In this document: in pieces, positions 27,177 through 39,208 of the stretch
Numbering within the stretch: the stretch's first letter is position 1
How the letters are laid out: each line of letters opens with the position of its first letter
Source of the DNA: Gammaproteobacteria bacterium
GTDB taxonomy: Bacteria > Pseudomonadota > Gammaproteobacteria > SURF-13
DNA length: 40,674 nt
NCBI GenBank assembly: GCA_003599485.1
Contig: QZKM01000016.1
Span: 1 to 40,674 of the forward strand
Direction of reading: 5' to 3'
The notes under the pieces: model-generated
The model's input: the letters and a program-made list of their open reading frames with translations, nothing else
Database searches by the model: none
What the model was told of the DNA's origin: nothing
Made by a program: the position numbers and the translations under genes

Positions 27177-28380
27177 GAAAATCTGGTTGCTCGCATTAGT
27201 TCTGGTGGTTACCGGCGTGGTGACAGGCGCTCTGGTGCAGCGGTACGTTGCGTCCATGTCCATGCCGCCCCAGGGAGAAGTGGCTGAGAAAAAAATCCTG
27301 TTTTACCGCCACCCCATGGACCCTGCCATCACCTCGGACAAGCCGGCCAAGGACGACATGGATATGGATTACATTCCTGTGTACGAGGGAGAGGAAACGG
27401 GCGCGGATGCGTCCACGGTCAGCATCTCGCCTCAGGTGGTGAACAACATGGGCGTGCGCACGGCGCGCGTTGCGCGCACGCCACTGGCGCAGATCGTCAG
27501 CGCCGTGGGCTACATCGGTGTGGATGAAGGCAGGCTGCACCACCTGCACGTGCGCAGCGAAGGCTGGGTGGAAGGCGTGCGGGTGAAGTTCGTGGGCCAG
27601 CGCGTGCGCGCGGGCGAAATCCTGTTCGAGATGTATTCGCCAAAACTGCTCACCACGCAGCAGGAATATCTCCAGGCGCATGATGACCCCATGTTGCGCC
27701 GCGCCGCGCGCGCGCGTTTGCAAGCCTTGGGCATGGCGGAGGCGGAGATCAGGCGGCTGGAAACCACACGCAAGCCCCGGCGCGCCGTCGCTTTTTATGC
27801 CCCGGCGGACGGTGTAGTGACGGTGCTTGCTATCCGCCCAGGCATGTATCTGCAACCGGATACCGAGGCCGTGACACTGGCTGATCTGGCCAGCGTGTGG
27901 GTGCAGGTGGATATATTCCCGCAACAGGCGGCTTTGCTGCGCGCGGGCCAGGAGGCGGAAGTACGCAGCGCCGATGCGCCGGGGAAAGTTTGGCGAGGCA
28001 AGGTGGACTATCTCTACCCGGAAATAGACCCGGTCACGCGCACACTCAAGGCGCGGCTGCGCTTTGACAACCCTGATGAAATCCTGAAACCCAATATGTA
28101 CGCCGAGGTGAGCATCGCGGCGGGCGAGGCGCGCGAAGCGCTCACCGTCCCGCGCGAAGCGGTGATCCAGACCGGCAGCGGGCGGCGTGTGATCGTGGCC
28201 CTGGACGCGGGAAAGTTCGCGCCGCGCGCCGTCGAAACCGGCATGGAGGCGGGCGAGCGGACGGAAATTTTGTCCGGGCTCAAGGAAGGTGAAGCGTTGG
28301 TGATTTCCGGCCAGTTCCTGATTGACTCCGAGGCGAGCCTCAAGGCGGCGTTCACGCGCATGTCGGGAGAAACGCCATGA
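27169..28380 (+). CDS. cusB: Periplasmic adaptor, CusB family, with heavy-metal-binding N-terminus
   Basis: This membrane-fusion protein links the RND pump to the outer-membrane duct. ATG 27169 is preferred over GTG 27160 and ATG 27163 because AGG at 27158-27160 is then correctly spaced; it gives 403 residues. An N-terminal anchor ([18 protein letters not shown]) is followed by a heavy-metal-binding YHS-like module at 44-72 (YRHPMDP, then [11 protein letters not shown]). Barrel-sandwich and beta-barrel parts follow ([39 protein letters not shown]). Met-rich stretches fit Cu(I)/Ag(I) binding. Its TGA overlaps the RND gene start (ATGA). Confidence 0.9.
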
Positions 28381-31300
28381 TTGCCCGCATCATAGTCTGG
28401 TCGCTCGCCAACCGTTTTCTGGTGTTGCTGCTTGCGCTCCTTCTGGCCGGCTGGGGCGTGTATGCGGTGAACAAGACCGCGGTGGACGCCATTCCCGACT
28501 TGTCCGATGTGCAGGTGATTATCAAGACCACTTATCCCGGCCAGGCGCCGCAAGTGGTGGAAGACCAGGTTACCTATCCGCTCACCACCGTCATGCTTGC
28601 GGCGCCGGGCGCGGTGCGTGTGTACGGCTACTCGTTTTTCGGCGACTCGTACGTGTACGTATTGTTTGAAGACGGCACGGATCTTTATTGGGCGCGCTCG
28701 CGCGTGCTGGAATATTTGAATCAGGTGTCCGAACGCCTGCCCAGGGAGGCGCGCCCCGCGCTGGGGCCGGATGCCACCGGCGTGGGCTGGGTGTATGAAT
28801 ACGCGCTCGCCGACCGCAGCGGCAAACATGATCTTGCGCAGCTAAGAAGCCTGCAAGACTGGTTTCTCAAATTCGAGTTGCGCAGCGTGCCCGGTGTGGC
28901 CGAAGTCGCCACCCTGGGCGGCATGGTGAAGCAGTATCAGGTGATCGTGCATCCGGCGCGCCTGCGCGCGTATAACCTCGACCTGTCCGCGCTGCGTAAC
29001 GCGATCGAGCGCGCGGGACAGGAGAGCGGCGGCGCGGTGATCGAAATGGCCGAGGCGGAATATCTCATTCGCGCCAGGGGTTACATCACCGGCATCGAAG
29101 ACCTGCGCGCCGTGCCTTTGGGGATAACGCAAAACGGCACACCCGTGCTGCTGGAAGACGTGGCCGAGATACGCATCGGCCCGGAACTGCGCCAGGGCAT
29201 CGCCGAGCTGAATGGCGAAGGCGAAGTGGTGGGGGGCATCGTGGTGATGCGCTCCGGAAAAAACGCGCAACAGGTGATCAAGGGCGTAAAGGCAAAACTC
29301 GCCGAGCTTAAAAAACAGTTGCCCGAAGGCGTGGAAATCATTGAGACTTACGATCGCTCCGGCCTGATTGAGCGCGCGGTGAGTAACCTCACGCAAAAGC
29401 TCATCGAGGAGTTCATCGTCGTGGCCCTGGTGTGCCTCGCCTTTCTGTTTCACCTGCGCTCGGCGCTGGTGGCGGTGGTGAGCCTGCCGCTCGGCATTCT
29501 CGCGGCTTATATCGTGATGCATCACCAGGGTATCAACGCCAACATCATGTCGCTCGGCGGCATCGCCATTGCCATCGGCGCCATGGTGGACGCGGCCATC
29601 GTGATGATAGAAAACGCGCACAAACACCTGGAGCGCGATTCAGGGCAAGATCATTGGGCCATCATGCAAAAGGCCGCCACCGAAGTCGGGCCGCCGCTGT
29701 TTTTCGCGCTGCTGATTATCACCCTGAGCTTTCTCCCCGTGTTCACCCTGGAAGCCCAGGAAGGCCGCCTGTTCGCGCCGCTCGCCTACACCAAGACCTA
29801 CGCCATGGCCGCGGCGGCGGGATTGTCCATCACGCTGGTGCCGGTGCTCATGGGTTATTTCATCCGCGGCAGGATTGCGCCGGAGCAGAAGAATCCCTTG
29901 AATCGCGCGCTCATCCGCGCCTATCGCCCGCTTGTCGCCCGCCTGCTGCACACTCCGAAGACCGTGCTCGTGGTGTCGCTGCTGCTGGTGCTCAGCATCG
30001 CCTGGCCGTTAAGCCGTCTCGGTTCCGAGTTCATGCCCGACATGGACGAGGGTGACTTGATGTATATGCCCACTTTGCTGCCGGGCGTGTCCATCGGCAA
30101 GGCGCAGGAATTCTTGCAGCAGTCCGACAAACTCATCAAGACCGTGCCGGAGGTGAAGAGCGTATTCGGGAAAGTAGGGCGCGCCGACACCGCCACCGAC
30201 CCCGCGCCGCTCACCATGCTGGAGACGCTGATTCAGTTCAAGCCCGGGGATCAGTGGCGCCCCGGCATGACGCCGGAAAAGCTGAGGCAGGAACTGGATC
30301 GCGTAGTACGTTTCCCCGGCGTGAGCAACGTGTGGGTGATGCCGATCAAGACACGCATAGACATGCTCGCCACCGGCATCAAGACGCCGCTGGGCGTGAA
30401 AATCGCCGGGCCTGATCTCAAACAGATCGAAGACCTGGGCAAACAAATCGAGCAGGCGCTGCGCAAAGTGCCGGGCACGGCGTCGGCCTACGCCGAGCGC
30501 GTCACCGGCGGGCGTTACATCAATATCGCCATAGACCGCCGCGCCGCCGCGCGCTTCAATCTCAATATCGCCGGCGTGCACGAAGTCGTGCGCACCGCCA
30601 TCGGCGGCATGAACGTCGCGGAAAGCGTGGAGGGGCGCGAGCGCTATCCGGTGAACCTGCGCTACCCGCAACAGGTGCGCGATTCGGTGGAACAATTGCG
30701 CCAATTGCCGATAGTCACGCCCGCGGGCGCGCACATTCCATTGGGCCAGGTCGCGCGCATCGAAATCGCCGACGGGCCGGACATGATTAAAAGCGAAAAC
30801 GCGCGCCTGAGCGGCTGGGTCTATGCTTACATCGAAGGCCGCGATCTCGGCTCCTACGTGCAGGACGCCAAGCGCGCGCTGCAAGATGAACTGAAGCTGC
30901 CGCCCGGCTACACCCTCACCTGGGCCGGGCAATATCAATATCTGGAGCGCGCCAGGGAGCGGTTGCAATACGTCATTCCGGTCACGCTCGCCATCATCTT
31001 GCTGCTGCTCTATTTGAGTTTCCGCAATTTCACCCAGGCCTGCATGGTGCTCGGCGCCGTGCCGCTCGCCCTGATCGGCGGATTCTGGATACTCTATCTA
31101 TTAGGTTACAACCTGTCCGTCGCCGTGGGCGTCGGCCTCATCGCCCTGGCCGGCCTCAGCGCCGAGTTCGGCGTGGTCATGCTGGTCTATCTCGATCAGG
31201 CCTGCAAACGACTGCAACCCAAAACGCTTATCGAACTGCGCGCCGCCGTGATGGAAGGCGCCGTCATGCGCGTGCGCCCGCTCGCCATGACCGCCTCCGT

Positions 31301-31469
31301 CATCATCGCCGGCTTGCTCCCCATCATGATCGGCGCAGGCGCGGGCTCGGAAGTCATGAAACGCATCGCCGCCCCCATGGTCGGCGGCATGATCACCGCC
31401 CCGCTGGTGTCGCTGTTCCTGATCCCGGTGCTGTATTTGCTCTGGAAAGGCCGTAAACTCAGCCCATAA
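28377..31469 (+). CDS. cusA: Heavy-metal RND efflux pump, CusA family
   Basis: This 1030-residue proton-driven pump exports metal ions from the periplasm or cytoplasm. It has the 12-TM RND plan with two large periplasmic loops. The TM4 motif [20 protein letters not shown] carries the charged relay residues and is characteristic of the monovalent-cation (Cu/Ag) HME subgroup rather than CzcA. Met-rich loop segments ([16 protein letters not shown]) fit a Met relay. The start overlaps the CusB stop. No two-component regulator or CusF-like chaperone lies in the window, so the inducer cannot be read from context. Confidence 0.93.
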
Positions 31470-31511
31470 ACTCAGTTAAAATAAGACGCTTGAGCGGGGG
31501 CAAAGGCTGGT

Positions 31512-34500
31512 ATGCCGCAACCAGAACAACAAGCCAGGGGGAATATTGATCGCTTGCTCAAGCTCGCGGGCTGGATTGTCTCTGAGCCGGAGCAAGCCAA
31601 CATCCATGCCGGACGCGGCATCGCCATCCGCGAGTTTCCGCTCAAGGCCGGGCATGGTTTTGCGGATTATCTGCTCTATGTGGATGGCAAGGCCGCCGGG
31701 GTGATCGAGGCCAAGAAGGAAGGTGTCACGCTTACCGGCGTGGAAATCCAGGCGGCCAAATACGTCCAGGGACTGCCCGGTGGCCTGCCGCGTTGGGGGA
31801 GTCCACTGCCTTTCTCATACCAATCCACCGGGGCCGAAACGCGGTTCACCAACGGCCTCGATCCGTCGCCACGCTCCCGCCCGGTGTTCGCCTTTCACCG
31901 CCCCGAAACCCTCGCCGATTTTCTCGAAGTAGGGCGGATTAAGGAGCGCAGCGACGAATCCGCCAGCGCCGCCGCCGAAGCGGCGGCCACCTACGATGCT
32001 GGCCGCGGCACCTTCCTCCACCGCCTGCAACACCTGCCGCCACTCAAGACCGAAGGCCTGTGGCCCGCCCAGATCAAGGCCATCGAGAACCTCGAACAAT
32101 CGCTTAAAGCGAACCGCCCGCGCGCCCTGATCCAGATGGCCACGGGCTCGGGCAAGACCTTCACCGCCATCAGCTTCATCTACCGGCTGCTGAAGTTCGC
32201 CGGTGCCCGGCGCATCCTGTTCCTGGTGGACCGCGGCAACCTCGGCGACCAGACGCTCAAGGAGTTCCAGCAGTACACCTCGCCCTACAACAACTTCAAG
32301 TTCACCGAGGAGTACATCGTCCAGCGCCTGTCGAGCAACACGCTCGACACCACCGCGCGCGTCTGCATCTGCACCATCCAGCGCATGTACTCGATGCTGA
32401 AGGGCAAGGATCTGCCCGAAGACCTCGAAGAAGTCTCCGTAGACCAGCTCGGAAGCCTGTTCCGGGGGAACGGGCAACGCAGGGCGTCGCCAGACAAGGC
32501 GCGAGGCGAGCGAGCAGCGGAGTTGACAGATGAGTCAATGAGCAGCGGAGCGACCCGAGCAACGCCGTATGGCGACGGCCTGCTAAGCCCGACCGAGCCG
32601 ATCGAGTACAACCCGGCGATTCCGATCGAGAGCTTCGATGTCATCGTCACCGACGAATGCCACCGCTCGATCTACAACCTCTGGGCGCAGGTGCTGGAGT
32701 ATTTCGACGCCACCCTCATCGGCCTCACCGCCACGCCCAGCAAGCAGACCTTCGGCTTCTTCCACCAGAACCTGGTGATGGAATACAACCACGAAATGGC
32801 CGTGGCCGACGGCGTCAACGTCAACTACGACGTCTACCGCATCCGCACCGCCATCAGCGAGGCCGGCTCCAAGGTGGAGGCCGGCTACTACGTGGAAAAG
32901 CGCGAGCGCGAGACGCGCAAGACCCGCTGGGAGGAGCTGGAGGACGACTTCGCCTACGATCCCAACCAGCTCGACCGCGAGGTAGTCACGCCGGACCAGA
33001 TTCGCACCGTCGTCAAGACCTTCAAGGACAAGCTCTTCAGCGAAATCTTCCCCGGGCGCAGCGAGGTGCCCAAGACCCTCGTCTTTGCCAAGGACGACAA
33101 CCACGCCGAGAACATCGTCGAAATCCTGCGCGAGGAATTCGCCAAGGGCAACGAATTCGCCCAGAAGATCACCTACCGCACCACCGGCGACACGCCGCAG
33201 AACCTCATCAAGTCGTTTCGCAACAGCTACCACCCGCGCATCGCCGTCACCGTGGACATGATCGCCACCGGCACCGACATCAAGCCGGTGGAAATCGTCA
33301 TGTTCATGCGCGCGGTCAAGTCGCGCTCGTTCTTCGAGCAGATGAAGGGCCGCGGCGTGCGCGTCATCAAGGACGACGACCTCAGGGCCGTCACCCCGGA
33401 CGCCAAGGCCAAGGACCACTTCGTCATCGTGGACGCCGTCGGCGTCTGCGAGCAGGACAAGACCGACGCCCGGCCGATGGAGAAAAAGCCGAGCGTCTCG
33501 TTCGCCGACCTGCTCAAGGCCGTGAGCTTCGGCAACACCGAAGACGACGTGCTCACTTCCGTCGCCGGGCGCCTGGCGCGCATGGAACACCGTCTGAGCC
33601 CGGAGGACGACAGGAAAATCCGTCAGGCTAGCGGCGGCCTGGGACTCAAAGACCTCGCCCACCGCATCATCCAATCCCTCGACCCCGATGCCGTTCTCCC
33701 TCTCCCTCCGGGAAAGGGCCGGGGTGAGGGCGAAACGTTGGGCCGTCATTCCCGCGAAGGCGGGAATCCAGAAGTTCAATTAGCCGAAGCCCGCGCACGC
33801 GCCGTGCACGACGCCGTCAAACCGCTGCACGCCCCGGCCCTGCGCAACCTGTTAATCGAGATCAAGCAAAAGAACGAAATCACCATTGACCATGTTAGCC
33901 AGGACCAAGTCATCGAAGCCGGACCCAGCCAAGCTACCCTAGACCGTACAAAGGGGCTGGTGCAGTCGTTCGAAAAATTTATCCGGGACCACAAGGACGA
34001 AATCACGGCATTGCAGATTCTCTATTCAATGCCGCATGCAAAGCGCCGCCTCAGCTACGAGCACATCCAAGAATTGGCTGACCGCATTTCTGCGCCGCCG
34101 CATCTTTGGAACGAGTCCCAGTTATGGAACGCATATAAAGCGCTGGAAAAATCAAAAGCCAGCGGCTCGCCTGCGCCCACAGGGCAGGCAGGCAAACGAA
34201 TCCTCACCGATCTCGTGTCGCTGGTGCGCTTCGCCATCCACCAGGACAACGAACTCATCCCGTTCCCCGATCGCGTCAACGCCAACTTCAAGGCTTGGCT
34301 CGCCACCCAAGGCCGTCATTCCCGCGAAGGCGGGAATCCAGAGCCTTTCACCCCAGAACAAATGAAATGGCTCGAAATGATCCGCGACCACATCGCCGCG
34401 AACCTCAGCATCGAGCCGGACGACTTCGAGTACGCGCCATTCTCACAACAAGGCGGTCTCGGCAAGGCCCATCAGTTGTTCACGGACAGACTGGGCATGA

Positions 34501-34535
34501 TACTTGATGAACTTAACCGGAAGCTCGTCGCGTAA
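31512..34535 (+). CDS. hsdR: Type I restriction enzyme R subunit HsdR
   Basis: HsdR is the translocating nuclease of a type I restriction complex. The 1007-residue product has an N-terminal PD-(D/E)xK nuclease (D52 in ADYLLYVDG; EAK at 66-68), then a superfamily-2 helicase with Walker A ATGSGKT (210-216), DECH box (381-384), GLTATPS and the late motif MKGRGVRV, and a C-terminal EcoEI-type domain. The frame is intact. At least five palindromic repeats lie inside it: a 101-bp element (residues about 324-357), units at 729-754, about 886-894 and 934-944. They encode low-complexity peptides between conserved blocks. The DECH box is intact. Whether the enzyme works is unclear, since the locus retains only an hsdM stub. 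Confidence 0.93.
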   Translation: MPQPEQQARGNIDRLLKLAGWIVSEPEQANIHAGRGIAIREFPLKAGHGFADYLLYVDGKAAGVIEAKKEGVTLTGVEIQAAKYVQGLPGGLPRWGSPLPFSYQSTGAETRFTNGLDPSPRSRPVFAFHRPETLADFLEVGRIKERSDESASAAAEAAATYDAGRGTFLHRLQHLPPLKTEGLWPAQIKAIENLEQSLKANRPRALIQMATGSGKTFTAISFIYRLLKFAGARRILFLVDRGNLGDQTLKEFQQYTSPYNNFKFTEEYIVQRLSSNTLDTTARVCICTIQRMYSMLKGKDLPEDLEEVSVDQLGSLFRGNGQRRASPDKARGERAAELTDESMSSGATRATPYGDGLLSPTEPIEYNPAIPIESFDVIVTDECHRSIYNLWAQVLEYFDATLIGLTATPSKQTFGFFHQNLVMEYNHEMAVADGVNVNYDVYRIRTAISEAGSKVEAGYYVEKRERETRKTRWEELEDDFAYDPNQLDREVVTPDQIRTVVKTFKDKLFSEIFPGRSEVPKTLVFAKDDNHAENIVEILREEFAKGNEFAQKITYRTTGDTPQNLIKSFRNSYHPRIAVTVDMIATGTDIKPVEIVMFMRAVKSRSFFEQMKGRGVRVIKDDDLRAVTPDAKAKDHFVIVDAVGVCEQDKTDARPMEKKPSVSFADLLKAVSFGNTEDDVLTSVAGRLARMEHRLSPEDDRKIRQASGGLGLKDLAHRIIQSLDPDAVLPLPPGKGRGEGETLGRHSREGGNPEVQLAEARARAVHDAVKPLHAPALRNLLIEIKQKNEITIDHVSQDQVIEAGPSQATLDRTKGLVQSFEKFIRDHKDEITALQILYSMPHAKRRLSYEHIQELADRISAPPHLWNESQLWNAYKALEKSKASGSPAPTGQAGKRILTDLVSLVRFAIHQDNELIPFPDRVNANFKAWLATQGRHSREGGNPEPFTPEQMKWLEMIRDHIAANLSIEPDDFEYAPFSQQGGLGKAHQLFTDRLGMILDELNRKLVA
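32481..32581. repeat. 101-bp structured repeat inserted in hsdR
   Basis: The ends AGGGCGTCGCCA and TGGCGACGGCCT are inverted repeats (11 of 12). Inside are a direct repeat GAGCAGCGGA (32512-32521, 32540-32549) around a hairpin TTGAC/GTCAA. The reading frame stays open through it, adding about 34 residues between hsdR blocks just before the DECH box. It looks like a small non-coding mobile repeat. Confidence 0.75.
33698..33730. repeat. CT/GA-rich palindromic repeat in hsdR
   Basis: CCCTCTCCCT at the left and GGGGTGAGGG at the right form a hairpin around CCGGGAAAGGGCC. Repeats of this composition are common intergenic elements in proteobacteria; here it is read as Leu-Pro-Pro-Gly protein sequence. 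Confidence 0.65.
33741..33772. repeat. REP palindrome in hsdR, copy 1
   Basis: The core ATTCCCGC-GAAG-GCGGGAAT is a perfect stem of eight with a four-base loop. The 32-bp unit is identical to 34311-34342 and is read in the same frame (peptide GRHSREGGNPE). Confidence 0.88.
34169..34193. repeat. GC-rich GCAGGC repeat in hsdR
   Basis: A 25-bp unit beginning GCCTGCGCCCACAGGGCAG and ending in GCAGGC has relatives in hsdS (36122-36149) and the hsdM remnant (40182-40210). It is read as PAPTGQAGK. The family relation is a visual judgement. Confidence 0.5.
34311..34342. repeat. REP palindrome in hsdR, copy 2
   Basis: This copy is identical over 32 bp to 33741-33772, lies 570 bp (190 codons) away and is in the same reading frame. 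It has the same ATTCCCGC/GCGGGAAT hairpin. Confidence 0.88.
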
Positions 34536-34640
34536 GGAACAAGGCGCAGGAAATGGAACATCAATCTCCCATGATCCACGACTGTGTTCAGACAACGATC
34601 CGGAAGGGCCTATATGAGCTACCAAATTGGCGCCTCAAGT

Positions 34641-34665
34641 TTGAGGTCACAATTTGTGACCTCAA
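34641..34665. promoter_or_regulatory. Perfect 25-bp palindrome upstream of the ORF6N gene
   Basis: TTGAGGTCACAA-T-TTGTGACCTCAA is a perfect palindrome about 75 bases before the ORF6N ATG. Its 19-bp core AGGTCACAAwTTGTGACCT recurs inside the gene at 34960-34978. It may be an operator for a dimeric repressor; no factor is known from the sequence. The rest of the 202-bp gap shows no gene. Confidence 0.55.
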
Positions 34666-34737
34666 GAAAGCGAAATAGGCTTCATCAATAGCAACAGCTA
34701 ACAAGTCACGCAAAAACATATATAAGGAGCCGGATCA

Positions 34738-35274
34738 ATGGGAGTTAAGAAACCAGAGAAGGGCGGAGTCGTCATTCCCATGGAACGCATCAAGCAGGCA
34801 ATTTTTCTGATACGAGGCCACAAAGTGATGCTGGACAGTGATCTGGCGGATCTCTATGAGGTGGAGATCAAGGCCTTGAACCAGGCCGTCAAACGCAATA
34901 TCGGGCGATTCCCGGACGACTTTATGTTCCAGCTTACCGCCGAGGAAGCTACACGTTTAAGGTCACAAATTGTGACCTTAAAGACCGGGCGCGGGGAACA
35001 CCGGAAATACCTGCCCTACGCGTTCACCGAGCAGGGTGTGGCGATGCTTTCCAGCGTCCTGCACAGCGACCGTGCTATCCATGTCAACATCGAGATCATG
35101 CGCGCCTTCGTGCGGCTGCGGCAGATGCTCGCCTCCAACGTGGACTTGGCCCGCAAGCTCGTGGCGCTCGAAAAGAAGTATGACGCGCAGTTCAAGGCGG
35201 TGTTCGACGCCATACGGGAGCTAATGACCCCGTCGGAGCCGAAAAAGAAACGCCCCATCGGTTTCGGCCCGTAG
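34738..35274 (+). CDS. ORF6N-domain protein in the restriction island
   Basis: This 178-residue protein contains an ORF6N DNA-binding domain (about 14-130): [40 protein letters not shown] and [18 protein letters not shown] are diagnostic. The C-terminal part is a charged helix ending in a basic patch (PKKKRP). ORF6N/KilA-N genes are common in phages and as passengers inside type I restriction loci, where their role is not settled. The ATG has a strong AAGGAG ribosome site. Residues about 73-82 ([10 protein letters not shown]) are encoded by a perfect 27-bp palindrome that shares its core with an upstream palindrome, which suggests the protein or a neighbour may bind there; this is inference. 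Confidence 0.9.
34956..34982. promoter_or_regulatory. Perfect 27-bp palindrome inside the ORF6N gene
   Basis: TTTAAGGTCACAA-A-TTGTGACCTTAAA is a perfect palindrome within the coding sequence. The 19-bp core equals that at 34644-34662 except for the central base; centres are 316 bp apart. It may be a second operator or a structural repeat. Confidence 0.5.
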
Positions 35275-35300
35275 GAAGACAAGTAAAATAGTTAATGCAG

Positions 35301-35330
35301 GGTGGGTTAGTCCGAAGGGCGTAACCCACC
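35301..35330. repeat. GGTGGGTTA/TAACCCACC repeat, copy 1
   Basis: Nine-base perfect arms surround GTCCGAAGGGCG. This copy is intergenic between the ORF6N gene and hsdS. It is one of a pair exactly 100 bp apart. Confidence 0.85.
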
Positions 35331-35378
35331 GATCCAACCAGATAGGATCATTGAAGAATTGAACGAGACGTTGGCGGC

Positions 35379-36860
35379 ATGACAACTCAAAAAAATGTAG
35401 GGTGGGTTAGGCCGGAGGCCGTAACCCACCAAGACGACAAAGCAGGTTGGCGAAATGCCACACTTGGGGAATTTGTCGCGACCCGCTCTAGAGGCATTGT
35501 ACCCCATAAGACGCCGGGAATAACTTTCGAGTTGTACAGTGTCCCGAGTCTCGACACAGGCGCACCGGAGATCGTGAGGGGTGGTGAGATCGGTTCAAAC
35601 AAGCAGATCGTCGATGAAGGCACTGTGCTTCTTTGCAAGATCAACCCACGCATCAATCGTTCTTGGGTTGTCTCATCGCACACGGCGAACCAGAAGATTG
35701 CATCAACCGAGTGGATTACGTTTTTACCAAACGAGGCGTTCGAGCCGAAATATCTTGCGTACTATCTGAAACAAGATGCTGTACGCGATTTCCTTGCTGC
35801 CAACGCGTCTGGCGTGGGTGGATCGCTGATGCGTGTTAAGCCGGCGACTCTTAAAGACTACCCATTCCCGCTCGCACCCCTCGACCAACAAAAACGCATC
35901 GTCGCGGAAATCGAAAAACAATTCTCCCGCCTCGACGAAGCCGTCGCCAACCTCAAGCGCGTCAAGGCCAACCTCAAGCGCTACAAAGCCGCCGTCCTCC
36001 AAGCTGCCGTCGAAGGCCGCCTCGTCGAAACCGAAGCAGAAATCGCCCGCCGCGAAGACTGCAGCTACGAGACCGGCGCCCAACTCCTGCAACGCATCCT
36101 CGAAACCCGCCGCAGCCAATGGCTTGCCCGCGCCAACAAGGCAGGCGGGAAAGGCAAGGGCAAATACAAAGAACCCGCCGTACCCGACACCACCGACCTC
36201 CCCGAATTGCCGGAGGGGTGGGTGTGGGCGACTCTCGGAATGATTCTTTCAGATATTGAAGCGGGGAAGAGCTTCAAGTGTGAAGAGCGGCCACCAATGA
36301 AGGATGAAATTGGGGTTGTAAAGGTTAGCGCCGTGACATGGGGCGAATTTGATGAGAGCGAAAGTAAGACATGCCGCGACAAACGGCTGGTCAATGAGAA
36401 GTTGCTGGTTCGGTCCGGTGATTTTCTTTTTAGCAGGGCCAATACGATCGAGCTAGTAGGAGCTTGCGTCATCGCCAAGAAAGTAATCAGCAATGTTATG
36501 TTGAGCGACAAGATTCTTCGCTTTCGGCTGCTCAGTGGATTGGAGCAGTGGGTTCTTTATAACCTTCGTAGCACTTTCGGCCGTGAAGAAATTGAACGTC
36601 TCGCAACGGGCAATCAGGAATCAATGAGAAACATCGGCCAAGACCGAATAAGAGCTATTCGGATCCCGTTGCCACCGCTGGATGAATGTAAACGTATCGT
36701 CGCAGATATCGAACGCCGTTTCTCGCTTGTGGGCGAGACCGAAGGTCAAATCAACGCTAACCTCAAGCGCGCCGAACGTCTCCGTCAATCGACTCTTCAT
36801 GTGATGTTCAAGTGGGGAAACTCCGCGGCGCATTCAAAACACGCTACTTCTCATTGCTAA
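35379..36860 (+). CDS. hsdS: Type I restriction specificity subunit HsdS
   Basis: HsdS recognises the bipartite DNA target for the type I complex. The 493-residue product has two target-recognition domains, each followed by the conserved dimer-forming helix: LAPLDQQKRIVAEIEKQFSR (about 165-185) and LPPLDECKRIVADIERRFS (about 427-445). The first 20 residues (MTTQKNVGWVRPEAVTHQD) are encoded largely by a GGTGGGTTA repeat, so the original start may have been lost or the protein extended; real HsdS sequence begins near GWRNATLG. A GCAGGC-type repeat is read through at about 249-257. Base use in the second half turns AT-rich, fitting recombination of specificity domains. Confidence 0.9.
   Translation: MTTQKNVGWVRPEAVTHQDDKAGWRNATLGEFVATRSRGIVPHKTPGITFELYSVPSLDTGAPEIVRGGEIGSNKQIVDEGTVLLCKINPRINRSWVVSSHTANQKIASTEWITFLPNEAFEPKYLAYYLKQDAVRDFLAANASGVGGSLMRVKPATLKDYPFPLAPLDQQKRIVAEIEKQFSRLDEAVANLKRVKANLKRYKAAVLQAAVEGRLVETEAEIARREDCSYETGAQLLQRILETRRSQWLARANKAGGKGKGKYKEPAVPDTTDLPELPEGWVWATLGMILSDIEAGKSFKCEERPPMKDEIGVVKVSAVTWGEFDESESKTCRDKRLVNEKLLVRSGDFLFSRANTIELVGACVIAKKVISNVMLSDKILRFRLLSGLEQWVLYNLRSTFGREEIERLATGNQESMRNIGQDRIRAIRIPLPPLDECKRIVADIERRFSLVGETEGQINANLKRAERLRQSTLHVMFKWGNSAAHSKHATSHC
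35401..35430. repeat. GGTGGGTTA/TAACCCACC repeat, copy 2, in the hsdS start
   Basis: The same nine-base arms as copy 1, here with an inner GGCC-GGA-GGCC palindrome, lie eight codons into hsdS and are translated as GWVRPEAVTH. Confidence 0.85.
36122..36149. repeat. GCAGGC-type repeat in hsdS
   Basis: A 28-bp unit starting GCTTGCCCGCGCCAACAAG and ending GCAGGCGGG resembles the repeat at 34169-34193 in hsdR. It is read in frame as Ala/Gly/Lys residues in the linker between the two halves of HsdS. Confidence 0.45.
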
Positions 36861-38322: not shown

Positions 38323-39208
38323 ATGAGTCGCTATAAGACGCCCCTTCGCTATCCGGGAGGAAAACAAAAGCTTGCGCCCTTTATCCTTGAAGTAATGAAG
38401 GAGAACGAATTGGTGGGTGGGCACTATGCGGAACCGTATGCTGGAGGCGCTGGGGTCGCAATAGACCTGCTGCTGAGCGGCAAGGTTTCGCATATTCACT
38501 TGAATGACACCTGCCCCGGCATTTACGCATTTTGGCGATCTGTCCTAACACAGACAGAGGCGCTTTGTCGTCGAATATCACGCGCGTCGATGACCATAGA
38601 AGAATGGCGGCGCCACAAAGAAATTCTCTCGCGACCAACCGAACATGAGCAAATCGATGTCGGATTCAGTATGTTTTACCTAAATCGATGTAATCGATCC
38701 GGAATTATTTCGGGAGGCGTGATCGGAGGACTGAAGCAGGGGGGGGCGATGGAAAATGGACGCGCGCTTCCCGCGTAACGAATTGATCAGACGTATTGAG
38801 GCGATCGCGGGAATGAAGAAGTCAATTACGCTGAAGAAGTGGGACGCTGAGAGATTTATTCGGGAGTACATACCTGGACTACCGAAGAACACGCTTGTTT
38901 ACTGTGACCCACCATACTTTCACAAAGCGGATCGGTTATATCGAAATCACTACAAGCCGGAAGATCACGAACGAATCGCGCGGATCATCCAACGACACAT
39001 CAGACACTATTGGGTCGCTTCTTATGATAATGCTCCAGAAATCCGGAAGTACTACTCGCAGCGAAGGTGCTTTTTGTATGGACTCCAATACAACGCAGCT
39101 ACAGCGTACAAAGGCACCGAGGTATTCTTCCTCTCAGACAGGTTAAGGTTACCGGCACGATCATCGTTGTCGTTCATTGACCGTCCATTAAAAAAATTGG
39201 TTGCGTGA
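38323..39208 (+). pseudogene. D12-class DNA adenine methyltransferase, frameshifted at a G8 run
   Basis: The 5' frame (from 38323) has the N-terminal motif PLRYPGGKQKL and the AdoMet-binding YAEPYAGGAGVAIDLL. The catalytic motif DPPY (VYCDPPYFHKAD) is in the second frame (38756-39208). The frames join if one G is removed from the eight-G run at 38739-38746, giving KQGGRWKMDARFPRNEL, which is what the family shows there; the restored enzyme would have about 294 residues. It would methylate adenine N6 in a short target. The frame lies at a homopolymer, so phase variation or sequencing error are both possible. It lies 35 bases after the ParB-like gene. Confidence 0.82.

Follow-up and report, generated by a model that had tools for sequence, protein, structure and literature searches.

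A folded palindromic element in frame at one codon of hsdR genes from Gammaproteobacteria to Nitrospira

Palindromic repeats that are translated as part of bacterial proteins are already known, best as the scattered insertions of Rickettsia. Excerpts of one study describe the Rickettsia palindromic elements (RPEs) as palindromes of 105-146 bp fused in frame inside conserved genes (PMC2229807), and those of a second source give their size as about 150 bp (PMC10969869). In-frame fusions are likewise described for several bacterial MITEs in the available parts of PMC2229807, PMC10969869 and PMC2759123, and intragenic palindromes and MITEs are also treated in a portion of PMC5896051. REPs are another palindromic class found inside genes, for which flexible linkers or loops have been suggested as places where insertions are tolerated; they measure 20-40 bp and bear a GTAG or CGTC tetranucleotide tag, according to excerpts of PMC3733652.

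The element considered here is 119 bp long and lies within the hsdR gene of a 40,674-nucleotide stretch of DNA from a Gammaproteobacteria bacterium, hereafter the window. As read from its sequence, it resembles the RPEs in being a palindrome in frame inside a conserved protein gene, a likeness drawn from the descriptions in PMC2229807 and PMC10969869. Whereas RPEs occur in many Rickettsia genes, as far as those excerpts go, the hsdR element occupies one codon of one gene from Gammaproteobacteria to Nitrospira. With MITEs such as ERIC/RU-1, NEMIS and QMITE it shares small size, the lack of a gene of its own and inverted ends; 4-bp duplications accompany 15 of 26 elements with one arm type and none of the eight hsdR copies. 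As a family, too, it is short, multi-copy, without its own gene and bounded by terminal inverted repeats. In contrast to MITEs, its core is constant while its arms differ by genome, and no parent transposase element was seen in 19 regions. Like the CGTC and GTAG REPs it is palindromic, intragenic and placed in a seemingly tolerant loop or linker, but at 119 bp and with several internal loops it falls outside the REP class. None of the excerpts of PMC2229807, PMC10969869, PMC3733652, PMC2759123 and PMC5896051 describes an element that has repeatedly settled at a single codon of a single gene in bacteria this far apart. In the open-access literature we recognised no report of the hsdR element or of repeats in hsdR.

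The hsdR gene and the element within it

The gene, the element and its parts are placed in the window as follows.

31512-34535, plus strand: hsdR, EcoEI-type type I restriction R subunit, 1007 aa (ORF intact; Pfam EcoEI_R_C, ResIII, SWI2_SNF2, DEAD, Helicase_C, HSDR_N)
32472-32590, plus strand: whole structured element, 119 bp, ends GGGC...GCCC, in the hsdR reading frame (same 119 nt, indel-free across 7 hsdR genes, and in an eighth; fold z -5.61)
32472-32492, plus strand: left arm, forming helices 1 and 2 with 32570-32590 (fold)
32493-32569, plus strand: conserved core GACAAGGCGC...GCAACGC, common to free-standing elements (alignments A3, A4)
32512-32522, plus strand: internal direct repeat GAGCAGCGGAG, copy 1 (sequence)
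32522-32539, plus strand: tip hairpin with a TTGAC/GTCAA stem whose letters covary across the family (covariation, fold)
32540-32550, plus strand: internal direct repeat GAGCAGCGGAG, copy 2 (sequence)
32570-32590, plus strand: right arm (fold)
32652-32663, plus strand: DECH box, helicase motif II (sequence; D381, E382 and H384 invariant in 6 rows)

The original prediction described a structured repeat with an internal direct repeat around a hairpin, and this is borne out, as GAGCAGCGGAG occurs twice and flanks the TTGAC/GTCAA hairpin. The predicted bounds of 32481-32581 (101 bp) enclose a real repeat but are too short, the actual limits being 32472-32590 (119 bp). Terminal inverted repeats expected to be near-perfect are present, as 25-nt arms at 32471-32495 and 32567-32591, but are imperfect (80% complementary). 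The segment is in frame and precedes the DECH box by 21 residues, as foreseen in outline, but adds 41 residues and not about 34. Folded as RNA, the 119-nt element reaches -60 kcal/mol (z -5.61), better than all 200 dinucleotide shuffles; the 101 nt originally delimited (z -4.05 as RNA) and a 136-nt stretch (z -3.94 as DNA) each beat 200 of 200 dinucleotide shuffles as well.

An alignment of HsdR homologues, proposed earlier as a check, confirmed that the segment is extra. It comprised 18 other close HsdRs and the window, 19 rows in all, with L169 dropped as a duplicate of L124 (L, G and C numbers are our handles for loci, genomes and contigs). The spacing from TIQR to YN is 78 residues in the window HsdR and 77-79 in the seven carriers that include it, which corresponds to an insert of 40-42 residues, versus 37 in 12 of 12 insert-free rows. 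Eleven more distant HsdRs (L038-L048) also lack the insert, which is absent from 23 of the 31 HsdRs compared. Because all 12 close insert-free spacings equal 37 and the 11 more distant HsdRs are insert-free, the empty gene is most likely the ancestral state. Structure prediction for HsdR (six rows) gave a mean pLDDT of 34.3, too low to be used.

Upstream of hsdR lies a gene (28377-31469) that presumably encodes an RND transporter, and a Pfam scan of the ORFs beside hsdR placed an ORF6N-domain gene at 34738-35274 and HsdS at 35379-36860. No hsdM adjoins hsdR among the ORFs scanned for PF02384 (the ORF6N protein, HsdS and six further ORFs to 39980); the one PF02384 match genome-wide (39.6 bits) is on contig C2, away from hsdR and hsdS (31512-36860). 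A D12-class adenine methyltransferase (PF02086) is seemingly split into overlapping ORFs at 38323-38778 and 38756-39208.

Other repeats are found in and around the same gene. Two identical 32-nt copies of GGCCGTCATTCCCGCGAAGGCGGGAATCCAGA lie in frame within this HsdR at 33741-33772 and 34311-34342, with the peptide GRHSREGGNPE; these HSREGGNP-coding repeats resemble dRS3/CGTC-type REPs, the kind treated in PMC3733652. HsdR linkers near residues 150, 740 and 935 hold low-complexity repeat-like peptides that differ by species (LPLPPGEG, PLPQGEGRGEG, GRHPGESRGPGIT), with examples in the window at about 33696-33740 and in L032, L034, L035 and L122, and several kinds of repeat may recur at the same HsdR linkers. 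A 37-nt direct repeat occurs at 35294-35330 and 35394-35430, the second copy encoding roughly residues 6-17 of the predicted HsdS. Before and inside the ORF6N-domain gene, at 34640-34665 and 34957-34982, are two near-palindromes of 26 nt, TTTGAGGTCACAATTTGTGACCTCAA and a sequence much like it, with 291 nt between them.

A wider family of folded repeats

A DNA search with the 101-nt window copy detected free-standing elements elsewhere, in other genomes (E 5.0e-7 at best), and a plain DNA search of its own genome at E≤0.001 returned the window copy alone. A covariance model, R1, was built from eight cores (alignment A3), a training set that included the window copy and the hsdR copy L036. R1 matches at least 44 of 95 genomes at E≤0.01, the window's own included, with at least 45 matches in one genome; these genome counts are lower bounds, as 47 candidates were scored per genome, and the E-values are rough. 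Further copies in the genome, for which a search had been suggested, were thus found with the covariance model: C8:17992 scores best at 71.6 bits, followed by members at 37.2, 32.4 and 25.2 bits, none of the four being spanned by a stop-free frame of at least 100 codons. The reading of the element as single-copy in its genome, which came from the plain DNA search, was dropped once the model had found them. No Rfam family matched positions 31500-34600 at E≤1.

The paired positions of the family covary. Both sides have changed in some sequence for 14 of the 23 pairs in alignment A3. Alignment A4 (35 matches from 34 loci), itself fitted to the R1 structure, has 93.3% of its cells paired versus 66.5% when shuffled, and a covariation score of 0.695 versus 0.202; the signal is gone when partners are slid by 1-3 columns. 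The core is constant across the family and the arms vary between genomes. For elements with CCTC ends, a set of 26 in which some have nested repeats and some lack the core, identical 4-bp flanks occur in 15 where 1.85 are expected after shuffling, and because of this excess we conclude that they have probably moved by a process duplicating 4 bp. A search for matching end pairs found none of transposase size in 19 regions of 5 genomes. When 44 copies were scanned for terminal repeats, 7, including L124, L156 and L163, gave none under a 12-nt rule, and among the terminal repeats of the rest some were plainly chance, lying inside or outside the ends.

The family is also varied in its arrangement. 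In genome G003, L103 and L104 have a further stretch nested within the core, and L105 has been reduced to its two ends (45 nt); each of the three has identical 4-bp flanks. Magnetococcales genomes have the same core with other ends, for instance GGGCGTGTTGACAT...ATGTCAACACGCCC (loci L123, L128, L130, L132, L134, L135, L140, L142, L144, L147, L154, L159 and L161). In L127 and L148 the core seemingly forms tandem arrays, judging from repeated peptides in the spanning frames. A phage or plasmid origin was considered and rejected: phages gave no match, plasmids one weak match of 33 nt (E 0.8), and viral contigs did not contain the hsdR-type string, 2 of their 59 general pattern matches passing R1 at E≤0.001.

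Carriers, their descent and conservation of the insert

A pattern scan of one genome from each of 84,980 species, which required exact core blocks, gave 44 stretches. Five of these fall in hsdR, where the insert takes the same codon and frame each time; by their record titles they come from Gammaproteobacteria (L124), Rhodocyclaceae (L155), Hydrogenophilaceae (L162), Nitrospira sp. UBA2083 (L156) and Nitrospira defluvii (L163). L036 came from an HsdR protein search. L272 was found by searching, at the DNA level, 175 genomes from the family that includes the L156 genome; 3 of the 175 matched, and the Nitrospira-family carriers number three (L156, L163, L272). All eight hsdR copies, that of the window and seven others, share codon, strand and frame. 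The insertion had been proposed as a rare single event, a claim that does not survive: seven other hsdR genes, the Nitrospira family included, carry it at the same codon, and the same segment in HsdRs of distant species, named beforehand as evidence to the contrary, is present in the Nitrospira family, Rhodocyclaceae and Hydrogenophilaceae. Searches for the element itself brought up six of the eight carriers, which makes the set a biased one. An HsdR-protein search made regardless of the insert found it in 2 of the 24 other genomes of the class with a match (G155 and G689), the aligned part of the G689 hsdR being equal to L124.

The window frame is complete (1007 aa) and L124 aligns with it over residues 19-1007. 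Frames of L155 and L036 stop early, at 550 and 568 codons and downstream of the insert, and the remaining four carrier frames run to the end of the available sequence. The contigs of L156, L162 and L163 stop 864, 330 and 540 nt past the element, possibly because of poor assembly of hsdR there.

Arms of the window type are found in hsdR: all five scan elements that have them are in this gene, and in 369 genomes of the class, with at most two candidates scored per genome, the matches reaching the left arm from position 1 are those of the window, G689 and G155, all in hsdR. Four other matches in that search cover at most positions 15-109, three with different arms and the fourth being L269 in G697. 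No free-standing donor with hsdR-type arms was found in the species scan (exact core blocks) or among the 369 genomes (up to two candidates each). As for a target-site duplication, which had been suggested as a check, none of the eight hsdR copies is flanked by a direct repeat of 2, 3, 4, 5, 6, 8 or 9 bp. In each of seven hsdR elements at least one antisense frame is open, yet all eight copies sit in the same sense frame. Insertion into other proteins was also considered, by listing the ORFs that span the 39 scan matches outside hsdR; those viewed were put down by eye to chance frames, to tandem arrays (L127, L148) or to readthrough into the gene next door, and the candidate was rejected.

After removal of the insert and linker columns, the 19-row HsdR tree, built before L272 was found and so without it, requires 5 label changes, at least 4 of them forced by well-supported branches. 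L155 pairs with the insert-free L035 (98/97) and L036 with the insert-free L170 (99/97), and a single clade for the seven carriers is rejected (AU p 4.5e-12, 19 HsdRs). Trees of the flanking DNA, in which few branches are well supported, reject one carrier clade as well (left p 1.1e-4, right p 0.0067). An earlier tree of 13 rows had given an AU p of 0.05 for one clade; a four-carrier group of the window, L124, L162 and L036, at p 0.517 with 13 rows, is rejected with 19 (p 0.0054). Divergence of the element is uncorrelated with that of HsdR (Mantel p 0.25, n=7). Third-position identity in the flanks is about equal in carrier-carrier and carrier-empty pairs, or lower in the former, a pattern that gives no hint of gene conversion on a wider scale. 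Recombination from hsdR to hsdR as the carrier of the insert was rejected, since the flanks are no more alike among carriers and both reject one clade; short recombination tracts between hsdR genes may nonetheless have occurred.

Within the element, codon positions 1, 2 and 3 are about equally conserved (0.776, 0.825 and 0.823), versus 0.860, 0.891 and 0.642 over residues 200-316 of hsdR. The insert had been called domesticated; it is indeed repeat-derived and in frame, but a selected protein function finds no support, as conservation of the insert lacks codon periodicity. Carriers fall into a main subtype, A (window, L162, L155, L156, L163, L272), and a B-type (L124, L036). Third positions among A-type carriers are 0.87-1.00 identical in the element versus 0.45-0.74 in the aligned rest of hsdR, an excess over conserved neighbouring codons in 15 of 15 pairs (Fisher p 2.3e-6 to 0.031, for pairs that are not independent and without correction for their number); between L156 and L163, for instance, 38 of 39 are identical in the element versus 0.47 in hsdR. 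Pairs with L124 or L036 have a significant excess in 0 of 13, and over all 28 pairs the element's third positions are ahead of hsdR in 24. In the seven hsdR copies alone, 4 of 36 pairs have changed on both sides, a count not above shuffles (139 of 500 reach it), and the covariation score of 0.188 beats 500 of 500 shuffles. Since A-type third positions are conserved far above the surrounding hsdR, their conservation would mean constraint at the level of nucleic acid or recent renewal.

Explanations and what the element may mean

The account that we consider somewhat probable, from sequence comparison, is that a translated palindromic element, like the RPEs, reached one tolerant loop of HsdR repeatedly and is constrained as nucleic acid or was recently renewed. 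A hairpin-forming, non-autonomous, MITE-like element would arrive at the loop before motif II, and ribosomes would read through it to give HsdR a 41-residue loop; if the loop tolerates the extra residues, arrival in frame would leave the enzyme whole. Several arrivals, through target preference or through hsdR-to-hsdR transfer without a trace in the flanks, would explain the distribution in place of one gain and many losses, and the core would be kept for its fold as DNA or RNA, whether this serves mobility or acts in the mRNA, and not for its peptide. Counted for this account are the multi-copy covarying family, the 4-bp duplications, the shared site, strand and frame in 8/8 and the clade rejections; counted against it are the lack of a target duplication at hsdR, of a same-arm donor and of a transposase-sized element, the B-type pairs without excess, the biased carrier set and, in the hsdR copies alone, double changes no commoner than in shuffles.

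Several of these observations also bear on a different history, in which one ancient insertion into hsdR spread with the gene by inheritance and horizontal transfer, was often and precisely lost, and has a fold that functions in hsdR mRNA or DNA. The identity of codon, strand and frame in all eight copies fits it, as do the restriction of hsdR-type arms to hsdR in the species scan and the 369-genome search and the absence of target duplications (0/8). Neither G749 nor G752 has a family match at E≤0.001 other than its hsdR copy, a finding that agrees with arrival together with hsdR better than with local transposition. The Nitrospira-family carriers, too, look inherited: L156 and L163 form a supported clade (100/98), the HsdRs of L163 and L272 are 90% identical, and the elements are still 96-97% identical. 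A single ancient insertion is nevertheless rather unlikely, as carriers do not form one clade on either flank, and the 11 more distant insert-free HsdRs make the empty state look ancestral. Tree topology as such would still allow one gain and many losses, but loss would have had to bring the spacing back to exactly 37 residues in all 12 of the close insert-free HsdRs, which disfavours repeated imprecise loss.

Tolerance alone, with palindromes landing everywhere and in-frame insertions surviving in flexible HsdR loops without any target preference, would agree with the different repeat-like peptides that collect in different species at the linkers near residues 150, 740 and 935. Residues 300-316, just left of the site, are also the least conserved bin examined (third-position identity 0.35-0.47). 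We hold it to be quite improbable, since a single subfamily is present at the site, on one strand although an antisense frame is open in 7 of 7 copies examined, and that subfamily was found nowhere else in the species scan or the 369-genome search. The window's genome is in 50 contigs and most carriers are metagenome assemblies by their titles, circumstances that could suggest an assembly artefact or a chance hairpin; the same 119 nt in eight separate assemblies and the covarying pairs across the family leave this next to no credence, and the independent copies have already refuted it.

A bolder form of the repeated-arrival account, in which a mobile folded element homes to one hsdR codon across phyla, enters it in the translated frame every time and is maintained at the nucleotide level, is tentative and on present evidence doubtful. 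If this is true, an anti-phage restriction gene would harbour a counterpart of an intein or intron that dispenses with splicing, and the fold of the element would serve transposition or the control of hsdR expression. With third codon positions that are, in the main subtype, far more conserved than the hsdR around them, the element is a case in which the use of a protein gene as a safe site by a selfish element could be tested.
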